64,000 bases of DNA, taken from NCBI GenBank assembly GCA_005884115.1, contig VAXW01000003.1, forward strand, positions 372,001 to 436,000, given 5' to 3'. Both the position numbers and the translations under genes were made by a program. The notes under the pieces are model-generated. The model was not told the origin of the DNA. It worked only from the letters and a program-made list of their open reading frames with translations, and did not search any database. The DNA is from Actinomycetota bacterium (GTDB taxonomy: Bacteria > Actinomycetota > Thermoleophilia > Solirubrobacterales > Solirubrobacteraceae). This document shows positions 6,876 to 10,503 of the stretch, piece by piece (the stretch's first letter is position 1; the number at the start of each line of letters is the position of its first letter).

Positions 6876-8780
6876 TTGGCGTTGGCTGTTTACACGAACG
6901 AGTCCCGCGATCGCGTGCGCGACGCCGTCGATTTCGTCGAGCTGGTGTCCGCCCGCACCGAGCTCCGGCGCGCGGGCCCGGCGCGGTATGAGGGTCTGTG
7001 CCCGTTCCACGAGGAGCGCACTCCGTCGTTTGGCATCGACCCTGCCCAGAAGGTCTACCACTGCTTCGGCTGCCAGGCCTCGGGCGACGTTTTCACCTTC
7101 GTTCAAGAGACAGAGGGCGTGGACTTCAGGGAAGCGCTCGAGCTGCTGGCCGAGCGCTACGGGGTGGAGCTGGAGCGCGAGCGTGAGGATCCGCGGGAAG
7201 CGGAGCGCCGCCGCCGCCGCGAGCGTCTGCTGGCGCTGCTGGCCCGCGCGAGCGCCTACTACGAGCGCTATCTGTGGGAGTCGAGCGAGGCGGCAAAGGC
7301 GCGGGAGTACCTGCAGGTGCGGGGACTCGGGGAGGAGGTACTCAGAGAGTTCGGCGTCGGCTATGCGCCGAGCGCGTGGGATCGCGTGCTGATGGCCTCG
7401 CGCCGCGGCGGCTTTGCAAACCGAGAGCTCTATGACGTGGGCCTGGTGCAGCGCTCGCGCGGGAACGGGATGCTCTACGACCGCTTTCGCTCGCGCATCA
7501 TGTTCCCGCTCTGTGACGCGCGCGGGCACGTGCTCGGCTTCGGCGCACGCGCGATGCGCGAGCAGCAGCGGCCGAAGTACCTCAACACCTCCGACAACGA
7601 GCTCTACCACAAGGGCCGCCATCTCTACGGCGCCCACCTCGCCCGCGTTCACGCCGCCCGTGCGGGGACGGTGCTGTTGTGCGAGGGCTACACGGACACG
7701 ATCGCCCTGCACCGGGCCGGCATGCGCAACGCCGTGGGGCTGATGGGCACTGCCCTGACAGCCGATCAGGTGGGCGAGCTTGCGCGCATGGCTCAGACGG
7801 TTCTGCTGGCGCTCGATGCCGACAGCGCGGGCCAGGAGGCGATGCTGCGCGCTTCGACCCTCGCCGCCAAGCGCAAGCTCGAGCTGCGCGTGGTGGCGAT
7901 GCCGGCGGGCACAGACCCGGCCGAGATCGTGCACAACGACGGCGCCGAGGCGATGGCGGCGCTGGTGGAGGCCTCGGTGCCGTTCGTGCGCTTTCGAGTC
8001 GAGCGCGCGCTCGACGCGGGCGCACTCGACAGTCCCGAGGGCCGCGACCGCGTCATCGACGAGCTGCGTCCCGTGTTCGCGACGCTTGCGCCGAGCGCCG
8101 TGCGCGATGAGCTCATGCAGCTCGTATCTAGCCGGCTAGCGCTCTCAGGCGGGCTCGCCGAGAGCCTGCTCTCCGCCGGAGGTCAGCGCGTCACCGCGGG
8201 TGCGCGGGTCTCCGCGGCGGGGCGAGTGGCCGGCGAGGGAGCGGATCAGCCGCAAAGCGGCGAGCGTGCCGGCACCGAGCCGGCAGCGGCTACCGCGCTT
8301 GGCAGGCGTGAGGACACCGAGCGCGCGTTCCTCGCATTGTGTATCGCCTCGCCTGAGGAGGGCGCGCGGGCGCTTGCGGAGCTGGACGTGGAGGAGAGCT
8401 TCTCCAGTGAGCGGCTACGCGGCGCCGCGAGGTTCCTGCTAGCGGGCGACCTGCGCGACCCGATGCATGGCGGATCCTCCAGCGGCCCTGCGGGCGAGGG
8501 CGTCGAGCCCGAGCTCGATCGAGAGCTCAAGGCTCTGCTCGCCGAGCTGGTGGTCGAGGCGGGGCGCGAGCAGCCCGATCCGGCAATGCTCGAGGTGCAG
8601 CGCCTGCAACTCGAGCTCGCGAGCGTCGACCGCCAGATCATGCGCGCGCGGGGGCAGGAGAGCGGCGACGTGAGCGCGCTCGCCGAGCGCCGAGCCGCTG
8701 TCAAGGGTGCGTTCGATAGCGCCTACGGGCGCGTGCTGGAACGCACGGGGGATAAGGAGGGTGCGGCCGCGGAGGCGTAG
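6876..8780 (+). CDS. dnaG: DNA primase DnaG
   Basis: A 634-residue primase. The N-terminal CHC2 zinc finger uses Cys42, His45, Cys63 and Cys66 (CPFHEERTPSF ... CFGCQASGD). The catalytic Toprim core has Glu270 (LLCEGYTDTIALHRAG) and the DxD pair Asp314/Asp316 (ALDADSAGQEA). The C-terminal third, from about 440, is a variable helical helicase-interaction region preceded by a low-complexity linker. It makes RNA primers for replication with DnaB. The start codon appears to be TTG (6876, or 6882), only 5 bases after dgt. Confidence 0.95.
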   Translation: MALAVYTNESRDRVRDAVDFVELVSARTELRRAGPARYEGLCPFHEERTPSFGIDPAQKVYHCFGCQASGDVFTFVQETEGVDFREALELLAERYGVELEREREDPREAERRRRRERLLALLARASAYYERYLWESSEAAKAREYLQVRGLGEEVLREFGVGYAPSAWDRVLMASRRGGFANRELYDVGLVQRSRGNGMLYDRFRSRIMFPLCDARGHVLGFGARAMREQQRPKYLNTSDNELYHKGRHLYGAHLARVHAARAGTVLLCEGYTDTIALHRAGMRNAVGLMGTALTADQVGELARMAQTVLLALDADSAGQEAMLRASTLAAKRKLELRVVAMPAGTDPAEIVHNDGAEAMAALVEASVPFVRFRVERALDAGALDSPEGRDRVIDELRPVFATLAPSAVRDELMQLVSSRLALSGGLAESLLSAGGQRVTAGARVSAAGRVAGEGADQPQSGERAGTEPAAATALGRREDTERAFLALCIASPEEGARALAELDVEESFSSERLRGAARFLLAGDLRDPMHGGSSSGPAGEGVEPELDRELKALLAELVVEAGREQPDPAMLEVQRLQLELASVDRQIMRARGQESGDVSALAERRAAVKGAFDSAYGRVLERTGDKEGAAAEA

Positions 8781-8850
8781 GGCGGCGATTTCGCCGCGCG
8801 TAGAGTGGGCGGCGCCGCGCCCCGGGGTCCGGGCCTGGGCCCTGGCAGGG

Positions 8851-8864
8851 CGAACATACGTTCG
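8851..8864. promoter_or_regulatory. LexA-binding site (SOS box)
   Basis: CGAACATACGTTCG is a perfect match to the Gram-positive/actinobacterial LexA consensus CGAAC-RNRY-GTTCG and an almost exact palindrome. It lies 35 bases upstream of the GTG of the HTH-HNH gene, in the 119-base gap after dnaG, where a repressor would cover the promoter. I saw no equally good box elsewhere in the window, including before recO and ruvC. Confidence 0.8.
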
Positions 8865-8899
8865 AGAGTTCCGTCCCAAGCGGTGAGGATCATCGGCGT

Positions 8900-9616
8900 G
8901 TGGACCGCACTTCGCTCGAGCAGCTACTCCGTCAGGGACTCTCCCTGGCTGAGATCGCCGAGCGGTTTGGGCTGCATGAATCGACGGTCGGGTACTGGGT
9001 TGGGAAGCACGGGCTTGAGGCGGTCCATCGTGAGAGGTCGGCCGCACGGGGCGGCCTCGGGCGGCGGCAGCTGGAGGCACTGGTCGAGGCGAACATGACG
9101 ATCGCGCAGATAGCCGAGGCGGTCGAGCGCAGCAAGGCGACCGTCAGGTACTGGCTCACGCGGTATGGATTGAGCACTCGAGGGGGCGTCGGCCGGAGGC
9201 CTGCCGAGCAGGTCCAGGCCGCCAAGCGGGCTGGTCTAGCCACAGCAGAGATGCTGTGCCCGCGCCATGGGACAACCGAGTTCGGTCTCAATGCTCGCGG
9301 CTACTACCGATGCAAGCGCTGCCGGTCAGAGGCGGTAGCGCGCAGACGCAGGAAGATGAAGTCCATTCTTGTTCAGGAGGCGGGCGGGCGCTGCTGCATC
9401 TGCGGGTATGACCGCAACATGCGCGCGCTCCACTTCCACCACCTCGAGCCGGAGCTCAAGCGGCATTCGATCAACGCCAAGGGCGTGGCGGTCGCGCTTG
9501 AGAAGTTGCGAGCGGAGGCTCGGAAGTGTGTGCTTCTGTGCTCTAATTGCCACGCCGAGGTAGAGGACCGTATGGTCTCGATTCCGGCAGGCGCGCAGGC
9601 GCGCTCTCCGGGGTAG
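8900..9616 (+). CDS. HTH / zinc-ribbon / HNH-nuclease-like protein under SOS control
   Basis: A 238-residue protein with four recognisable blocks. There are two consecutive helix-turn-helix repeats (about 5-33, SLAEIAERFGLHESTVGYWV; about 55-85, TIAQIAEAVERSKATVRYWL). Next is a zinc-ribbon-like block with Cys120, His123, Cys138 and Cys141 (CPRHG ... YYRCKRCR) and a basic stretch. Last is an HNH-like domain with Cys165/168, His180/181, Cys214, Cys217 and His218 (ICGYD ... LHFHHLEP ... CSNCHAE). HNH domains are metal-dependent nucleases or nicking folds; the HTH and ribbon parts suggest sequence recognition. The LexA box upstream points to induction by DNA damage. It ends 14 bases before tRNA-Asn. 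The target and activity are unknown. Confidence 0.75.
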   Translation: MDRTSLEQLLRQGLSLAEIAERFGLHESTVGYWVGKHGLEAVHRERSAARGGLGRRQLEALVEANMTIAQIAEAVERSKATVRYWLTRYGLSTRGGVGRRPAEQVQAAKRAGLATAEMLCPRHGTTEFGLNARGYYRCKRCRSEAVARRRRKMKSILVQEAGGRCCICGYDRNMRALHFHHLEPELKRHSINAKGVAVALEKLRAEARKCVLLCSNCHAEVEDRMVSIPAGAQARSPG

Positions 9617-9630
9617 CACAGGCCCGACGA

Positions 9631-9703
9631 TCCGGGGTAACTCAATTGGCAGAGTGCGGCGCTGTTAACGCCGAGGTTGTGGGTTCGAGTCCCACCCCCG
9701 GAG
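9631..9703 (+). tRNA. tRNA-Asn (GTT)
   Basis: A 73-nt cloverleaf. The acceptor stem TCCGGGG pairs with CCCCGGA (9696-9702). The anticodon stem-loop is CGGCG-CTGTTAA-CGCCG with anticodon GTT. The T arm is GTGGG-TTCGAGT-CCCAC. CCA is not encoded. It lies between the HNH gene and the BadH-like gene. Confidence 0.96.
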
Positions 9704-9723
9704 CTTGACGAGGCGAGGCTGAC

Positions 9724-10503
9724 GTGGCGCAGGCCCGAGCCGCCCGGCTCAAAGGCCGGGTCGCCGTCGTCTGCGGCGGCGCTCGCGGCATAGGCCGCGC
9801 GAGCGCGCTGGCGCTGGCGCGCGAGGGCAACGCGGTCGCGATCGCCGATCTGCGCGAGGATCAAGCAGCGGCGGTGGCGAGCGAGCTCCAGGACGCGGGC
9901 GCGAGGGCGGTGGCGGTGGCCATGGACGTGACGGACCCGGCGGCGGTTCGCGTGGGCATGGCGCACGCGAGCGATGCGCTGGGCGCGGTCGAGGTTCTGG
10001 TCAACTGCGCGGGCTGGGACGAGTTCAAGCCCTTCTTGGCGACGGAGGAGCCGTTCTGGCGGCGGGTGATCGCGATCAACTACGAAGGCTGCCTGCGCAC
10101 GACTCAGGCAGTGCTGGGCGGGATGGCGGAGCGGGGGTGGGGGCGGATCGTGAACCTGAGCTCGGATGCAGCGCGCGTGGGCTCGGCGCAGGAGGCGGTG
10201 TACGCGGGCGCGAAGGCGGCGGTGATCGCTTTTACGAAGACGATCGCGCGCGAATTCGCGCGCGATGGCATCACGGCGAACGTCGTCTGTCCTGGCTCCA
10301 CGGACACGGACATGCTCGAGGAGATGGTGCGGGGCGCACCGGACTCCGAACGGCTCGTGGGGGCGCTTGAGCGCGCGGTCCCGATGCGCCGCCTGGGACG
10401 CCCGCCGGAGGTGGCCGAGGCGGTCGCGTTCCTGGCCTCGGAGGAGGCGGGCTACATAACCGGGCAGACGCTGTCGGTGAGCGGCGGCCTGACGATGGCC
10501 TAG
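9724..10503 (+). CDS. badH: SDR dehydrogenase, BadH-like (2-hydroxycyclohexanecarboxyl-CoA dehydrogenase)
   Basis: A 259-residue classical short-chain dehydrogenase. It has a Rossmann glycine motif (GGARGIGRA), the NCAG block, and a Ser-Tyr-Lys active site with Tyr160 and Lys164 (AVYAGAK). Recalled BadH of Rhodopseudomonas shares the unusual stretches AGWDEFKPF, SSDAARVGSAQEAVYA, NVVCPGSTDTDML and the ending TGQTLSVSGGLTM. BadH oxidises 2-hydroxycyclohexanecarboxyl-CoA to the 2-keto form. The next gene is BadI-like, the following enzyme, which strongly supports the assignment. The start is a GTG 20 bases after the tRNA. The alternative is a general 3-hydroxyacyl-CoA dehydrogenase. Confidence 0.75.
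   Translation: MAQARAARLKGRVAVVCGGARGIGRASALALAREGNAVAIADLREDQAAAVASELQDAGARAVAVAMDVTDPAAVRVGMAHASDALGAVEVLVNCAGWDEFKPFLATEEPFWRRVIAINYEGCLRTTQAVLGGMAERGWGRIVNLSSDAARVGSAQEAVYAGAKAAVIAFTKTIAREFARDGITANVVCPGSTDTDMLEEMVRGAPDSERLVGALERAVPMRRLGRPPEVAEAVAFLASEEAGYITGQTLSVSGGLTMA

Follow-up and report, generated by a model that had tools for sequence, protein, structure and literature searches.

Nuclease gene and its product

The window, i.e., the whole 64-kb stretch of contig VAXW01000003.1 that was analysed, carries a gene for a predicted HNH endonuclease, which is preceded by a LexA box and followed by a tRNA-Asn gene (Table 1). The genome analysed, that of a soil bacterium, comprises 3.14 Mb in ten contigs, and its close relatives are the Solirubrobacterales. 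In the first-pass annotation the gene had been described as lying 35 bases behind a perfect LexA box, as encoding two helix-turn-helix (HTH) repeats, a four-ligand zinc ribbon and an HNH-like nuclease domain, and as ending 14 bases before tRNA-Asn. All these observations hold: the start codon is 35 nt downstream of the end of the box, the stop codon is at 9616, and the three kinds of domain were recovered by Pfam matches, by a confident structural model and by ligands conserved in 44 relatives.

Table 1. Features of the nuclease and tRNA-Asn locus, in positions of the window
Feature	Position	Strand	Remark
LexA box CGAACATACGTTCG	8851-8864	.	perfect CGAAC-N4-GTTCG palindrome; conserved; common with lexA
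TTCCGTCC motif adjoining the LexA box	8869-8876	+	22 of 47 checked loci have CCGTCC within 70 nt 5' of the gene
HNH endonuclease gene, 238 aa, HTH-HTH-zinc ribbon-HNH	8900-9616	+	open reading frame with GTG start; Pfam, PHROG, AlphaFold2
HTH unit 1, residues 3-37	8906-9010	+	Pfam and AlphaFold2 model
HTH unit 2, residues 55-88	9062-9163	+	Pfam and AlphaFold2 model
Zinc ribbon, ligands C120, H123, C138, C141	9242-9322	+	ligands invariant in alignment A2 (44 relatives); model strands 115-138
HNH (beta-beta-alpha metal) domain, residues 157-223	9368-9568	+	conserved residues; model E177-181, E210-214, H215-222
Promoter-like TTGCCA-18-TATGGT within the 3' end of the nuclease gene, possible LexA-independent tRNA-Asn promoter	9547-9576	+	sole consensus match in 8700-9800
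Short repeat of the tRNA-Asn 5' end (TCCGGGGTAGC), providing the stop codon TAG	9607-9617	+	duplicates of this kind reach p<=0.01 at 17 of 48 carrier loci
tRNA-Asn(GTT), only copy found in the genome	9631-9704	+	begins 14 nt past the nuclease stop
D-arm to anticodon stem of tRNA-Asn, inferred target region	9640-9673	+	hypervariable in nuclease-positive genomes

Judged by its sequence, the protein belongs to the phage HNH families PHROG 2255/3106 (match to phrog_2255, HNH, E 4e-25), and its closest structural neighbours are phage HNH proteins, e.g., G371 of the Yersinia phage fHe-Yen9-04 (E 1.5e-11). Single-sequence folding gave a poor model with a predicted local distance difference test score (pLDDT) of 60, and an alignment-based AlphaFold2 model (pLDDT 90.5) was used instead. 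Both HTH units are homeodomain-like in the Pfam match and are seen in the confident model. The zinc ribbon has the pattern C-x2-H/C-x2-C. The HNH residues C165, H180, H181, C210, C214 and C217 are invariant and C168 and H218 nearly so in the 44 relatives, phage ones included. These catalytic and zinc residues, together with the modelled beta-beta-alpha fold, assign the predicted protein to the HNH endonuclease family. A Pfam match to HNH_2 in the C-terminal half stayed below the family cut-off, and sequence and fold searches of the PDB returned generic HTH matches only, plus a weak HNH resemblance (best E about 0.05, Cap5). The fold is HNH and a GIY-YIG domain was not found. Of the 38 Pfam families matched by the whole protein, the 25 best, nearly all of them HTH, do not include DUF222, and it did not come up either when the C-terminal half was scanned. 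Overall the protein diverges fast, and purifying selection (dN/dS about 0.11) was seen in the closest within-genus pair, Solirubrobacter taibaiensis and S. deserti.

The LexA box and probable SOS control

The box CGAACATACGTTCG is perfect over the 10-position palindrome CGAAC-N4-GTTCG and agrees at 11 of 12 positions with the mycobacterial consensus TCGAAC-N4-GTTCGA. Since the shorter pattern GAAC-N4-GTTC occurs once in the window, at this site, against a chance expectation of 0.45, the box of the window alone is weak evidence. Across the genome CGAAC-N4-GTTCG was found at 18 sites, compared with 10 for a reversed control pattern, and boxes were found 5' of lexA, an ImuB-like polymerase gene, a UvrD-like helicase gene and a DnaB-like gene. 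These genes, whose names were assigned by reading their translations, look like a genuine SOS regulon. The genome's own lexA has the box CGAACACATGTTCG about 40 nt 5' of its start, and each of the 11 lexA genes collected from relatives has a perfect box about 50 nt 5' of the matched domain; the motif is therefore taken as the LexA operator of the Solirubrobacterales group. Among the nuclease orthologues, searched from -80 to +10 relative to the matched start, the box is perfect at 22 of 50 loci and has at most one mismatch at 30 of 50 (background 0.0056 per search window at the same loci), and even a decayed copy with an internal deletion (L261) retains a perfect one. The operator of the nuclease gene matches the organism's own LexA box, stands at promoter distance and is conserved in orthologues, which would place the gene in the LexA regulon. 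The DNA-damage control proposed at first pass is thereby well supported at the sequence level. Neither of the two sequence findings that the first-pass annotation had named as refuting, orthologues without a box and HNH residues that vary among them, was encountered.

Two further perfect boxes of the genome (L010 and L017, 1501-1514 in each; C2:497839 and C7:749060) have no clearly assigned gene on their 3' side, and one of them is identical to the box of the window. The box of the DnaB-like replicative helicase gene (L011 1501-1514, C4:57705) is perfect and lies 76 nt 5' of the gene, which is an unusual SOS target. The motif TTCCGTCC is conserved beside the LexA box in orthologous loci and does not fit the usual -35/-10 spacing. 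That it might be a tRNA-Asn promoter left behind by insertion was considered; neither the distance between the motif and -10-like hexamers nor its rarity in empty sites supported this.

Linkage to tRNA genes and insertion anatomy

The first-pass annotation mentioned the nearby tRNA-Asn and made no use of it; the proximity is real, and the tRNA gene proved to be the conserved partner of the nuclease. In the Solirubrobacterales, the end of essentially every full-length relative is no more than tens of bases away from tRNA-Asn, and outside the order the nucleases of one Brennerbacteria member (Patescibacterial, L098) and of one Gaiellaceae member (L117) also adjoin tRNA-Asn. Relatives located in phage tRNA arrays, e.g., gp262 of the Cronobacter phage CR3, an annotated HNH endonuclease 17 nt after tRNA-Asn, are flanked by tRNA-Asn in 25 of 44 cases after removal of near-duplicates, compared with 7.9 expected, and none of 5000 shuffles of the tRNA arrays reached 25; five other isotypes tested in the same way showed no enrichment. 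A sister branch of the nuclease adjoins tRNA-Lys(TTT), in several cases near tRNA-Glu, and the LexA box is usual there as well, being perfect at five loci (L257, L258, L259, L290 and L294), present with one mismatch at two (L291 and L292) and absent from L298. On the phage contigs L142, L143, L147, L148 and L149, HTH-bearing HNH relatives lie beside tRNA-Arg(TCT), not tRNA-Asn, which is not significant as an enrichment over the whole set.

The ancestral neighbourhood is dgt-dnaG, tRNA-Asn and a convergent glycosyltransferase-LLM pair, and the tRNA stays there in nuclease-free relatives. Between dnaG and the glycosyltransferase gene, tRNA-Asn was found in both orientations (L213-L228), with or without the nuclease, and in whichever orientation it is the 3' end of the nuclease gene that faces the tRNA. 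The sole tRNA-Asn copy keeps this position where relatives lack the nuclease, so it was the nuclease that arrived at the tRNA. Of 48 nuclease-positive loci, 17 have a significant (p<=0.01) duplicate of the tRNA 5' end, as against none of 19 empty sites, and several nuclease reading frames, in bacteria and phages alike, stop on the tRNA's own nucleotides 8-10 (TAG). Empty and decayed sites are present among the relatives, and at two nuclease-free loci (L218 and L219) nuclease remnants remain next to tRNA-Asn. A nuclease gene that stands alone next to the target presumed for it, while some relatives have empty sites, has the predicted layout of a free-standing homing endonuclease.

An ordinary SOS nuclease for repair or cell death, inherited vertically and placed next to tRNA-Asn by chance, is very improbable as an explanation of this layout. 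LexA-controlled HNH proteins of this kind are known from the 13E12/DUF222 group of Mycobacterium tuberculosis (PMC4181829), and the conserved dnaG locus and the correlation between nuclease and DnaG distances (rho 0.39) would suit such a gene. It would account neither for the Asn linkage in phages and Patescibacteria and the parallel Lys branch, nor for the duplicates of the tRNA 5' end and the stem-specific, isotype-matched tRNA divergence described below, and no DUF222 match was seen among the 25 best Pfam families of the whole protein or in the C-terminal half. The proposal of a dedicated SOS effector nuclease fares accordingly: the anatomy points away from repair and self-elimination, and a use in defence is possible though unlikely.

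A TANNAT hexamer occurs within the 3' end of the nuclease gene at several relatives' loci, and the window has its promoter-like site there, so a separate tRNA-Asn promoter is more likely than joint repression of the sole tRNA-Asn and the nuclease by LexA, which these sites disfavour. Transcription of the tRNA probably, on weak support, starts at a promoter of its own within the last part of the nuclease gene, and would so escape LexA repression. At six loci with a convergent tRNA (L067, L073, L075, L079, L089 and L283) a different type of tRNA-Asn (TCCCCGGTGATGTAATGG...) is found, which suggests that the tRNA gene was replaced, possibly along with the nuclease.

Divergence of the linked tRNAs

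Few parts of a genome are normally as conserved as the stems of its tRNAs. The tRNA-Asn of the window has an A10-T25 pair where G10-C25 is usual. This tRNA is single-copy in 15 of 16 genomes checked with an anticodon-loop pattern, which missed the sixteenth (G137) with its differing anticodon loop. In the D-stem and anticodon stem the non-consensus fraction was 0.354 in 48 unique nuclease-linked tRNA-Asn genes versus 0.070 in 16 unique unlinked ones (p 5e-5), and it was exactly 0 in 12 of these 16. The acceptor and T arm did not differ between linked and unlinked tRNA-Asn (0.071 versus 0.085, p 0.48), and none of 2000 label permutations reached the observed region-by-presence interaction. One inherited shift would not explain this pattern because the linked tRNAs differ strongly among themselves (mean pairwise difference 0.476). 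At a DnaG/glycosyltransferase identity of 0.6-0.7, tRNA-Asn identity was 0.756 among carriers and 0.929 among non-carriers. Pairing in the anticodon stem is preserved at 268 of 280 pairs.

The divergence follows the isotype. In Lys-linked genomes the non-consensus fraction of tRNA-Lys(TTT) was 0.232 versus 0.047 in the D-stem and 0.657 versus 0.208 in the anticodon stem, and in Asn-branch genomes the stems of tRNA-Lys are conserved as elsewhere (D-stem 0.017, anticodon stem 0.147). A control of five carriers and five non-carriers gave the same tRNA-Lys(CTT) identity, 0.951, in both groups; tRNA-Asn identity was also alike there (0.815 versus 0.822), and the control is usable only for tRNA-Lys(CTT) because one of its non-carriers still has a nuclease remnant and another is from a genus that contains carriers. 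In a further genome (G183; L281 1-3690) the sole tRNA-Asn found, at 2235-2319, is 85 nt long; its variable arm is long and its anticodon GTT, so that it looks like a derivative of a class II tRNA.

The same divergence could be produced by a DNA-damage-induced ribonuclease that acts on tRNA-Asn or tRNA-Lys in the manner of an anticodon nuclease, with the divergent tRNA as an immune copy, either as a toxin with its immune tRNA or as a defence. We consider this unlikely. It would agree with the focus of the changes on the anticodon stem and D-stem with pairing preserved, with the neighbouring positions of Asn (GUU) and Lys (UUU) in the codon table and with LexA control, which is suitable for a stress toxin, and tRNA-cutting defences do exist, e.g., Septu (PMC13096335). 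On the other hand, two HTH units and an HNH fold point to the binding and cutting of DNA, the sole tRNA-Asn copy stands at the same locus in nuclease-free relatives, and frames that end inside the tRNA gene, with relatives in phage tRNA arrays, are like homing endonucleases.

Proposed mechanism

Taken together, we consider it reasonably probable (about 0.62) that the gene encodes a LexA-gated, free-standing, homing-type HNH endonuclease which targets the adjoining tRNA-Asn gene, and that the host tRNA carries escape changes. An enzyme aimed at the tRNA gene is indicated by the tRNA linkage, by reading frames whose ends lie on the tRNA 5' end or abut it, by the location of relatives in phage tRNA arrays and by the stem-specific divergence of the tRNA. 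The family would have come under LexA control in the Solirubrobacterales. LexA would hold the nuclease off, and DNA damage would turn it on at a time when RecA-mediated recombination can take place. The nuclease would then recognise and cut tRNA-Asn genes, or tRNA-Lys genes in the sister branch, across the region from the D-arm to the anticodon stem, and RecA-dependent repair could mend the resident chromosome and at the same time carry the nuclease into uncut alleles. Repair from a nuclease-bearing copy would spread both the nuclease and the tRNA allele linked to it, which would resist cutting, and the resident tRNA-Asn would be protected by its compensated stem changes. The linked tRNA diverged specifically in the D-stem and anticodon stem, and this altered resident allele may be resistant to cutting.

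Several points weigh against this reading. Cleavage, homing and induction are all inferred, and Asn/Lys specificity could come about through recognition of RNA instead of DNA. Twenty of the 50 orthologous loci lack a box with at most one mismatch, several of them being fragments or decayed copies. Four of the 16 unique nuclease-negative tRNAs also diverged; one of these has a nuclease remnant, one is from a carrier genus, and two are without explanation. The T arm differed too (p 0.015) in the Lys set, which is small, and the tests treat unique tRNA sequences as independent, without correction for the species tree. At most loci the nuclease is confined to the one site between dnaG, tRNA-Asn and the glycosyltransferase gene, which fits largely vertical inheritance with losses. 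Horizontal spread has on its side the independent Asn and Lys loci and the phage relatives, and against it the correlation with DnaG already mentioned. The main uncertainties are whether the substrate is DNA or RNA and whether the use is selfish or defensive.

As for the defensive use, a domesticated nuclease, induced by DNA damage or phage attack, might cut incoming DNA that carries canonical tRNA-Asn genes, with the variant resident tRNA gene serving as self. LexA control of the gene and the divergence of the resident tRNA at the inferred target would suit this, many phages carry tRNA-Asn genes, which are common in large ones, and PADLOC gave weak matches, to MAD1 in the HTH part and to PtuB (17 bits). 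This explanation appears distinctly improbable to us: the MAD1 match is to a generic HTH only, no partner genes were seen at the locus and no defence-island context around dnaG/tRNA-Asn, and the frequent decay and the empty sites suit a selfish element equally or better.

A more tentative and rather doubtful extension is that a system gated by DNA damage reads self from the sequence of a tRNA gene which is essential and single-copy. The nuclease would attack non-matching tRNA-Asn or tRNA-Lys genes or their transcripts, the resident tRNA would be forced into rapid change that preserves base pairs, and, if this is true, nuclease and tRNA would be in an arms race within bacterial chromosomes.

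The homing-type reading, if true, would describe a selfish nuclease tied to the recombination state of its host, in a bacterial chromosomal family which is under an SOS switch and presumably directed at a tRNA gene that is essential and single-copy. Stems that are hypervariable mainly in carriers, and for the matching isotype only, would offer a testable explanation of odd bacterial tRNA sequences. Since cultured carriers exist (Solirubrobacter taibaiensis, S. deserti and Paraconexibacter antarcticus), cleavage and induction are directly testable.

Comparison with known systems

Homing endonucleases associated with tRNA genes are known from lytic phages. SegB of the phages T4 and T6 is a free-standing GIY-YIG homing endonuclease that lies beside tRNA genes and cuts within them, and in T6 there is microhomology between the tRNA 5' end and the nuclease 3' end (PMC13096335). 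The nuclease of the window is likewise a free-standing endonuclease beside a tRNA gene, with the same kind of similarity between the two ends; by analogy it would work like the SegB-type tRNA-linked homing endonucleases, yet it is not one of them, being a chromosomal HNH protein instead of a GIY-YIG enzyme of a lytic phage. SegB also differs in having no preference for a single isotype, no LexA control and no reported escape evolution of the host tRNA. The HNH proteins of PHROG 2255/3106 in phage tRNA arrays, such as CR3 gp262, have a homologous region of zinc ribbon and HNH domain, and their frames often end on nucleotides 8-10 of the next tRNA, as in the bacterial relatives; they are usually shorter, often miss the double HTH and have no LexA box.

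The HNH proteins of the 13E12 repeats of M. tuberculosis are controlled by LexA through the box TCGAAC-N4-GTTCGA (PMC4181829). An HNH protein under LexA regulation is thus common to both, whereas the 13E12 proteins are encoded by multicopy repeats and have another N-terminal domain (DUF222), of which no match was seen in the protein of the window. We know of no linkage of 13E12 HNH proteins to tRNA genes. Cap5, the HNH effector of the cyclic-oligonucleotide-based anti-phage signalling system (CBASS), and other HNH defence nucleases show a distant resemblance of the HNH fold as the best PDB matches; the scores are low, the protein of the window has no SAVED sensor domain, and no CBASS genes were seen nearby. 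A literature search of partial coverage on LexA-controlled homing endonucleases or tRNA escape found nothing on this family, an absence which is no proof. As compared to phage SegB, by which tRNA-linked homing endonucleases were already known, it is the LexA control and the tRNA escape that appear to be new.
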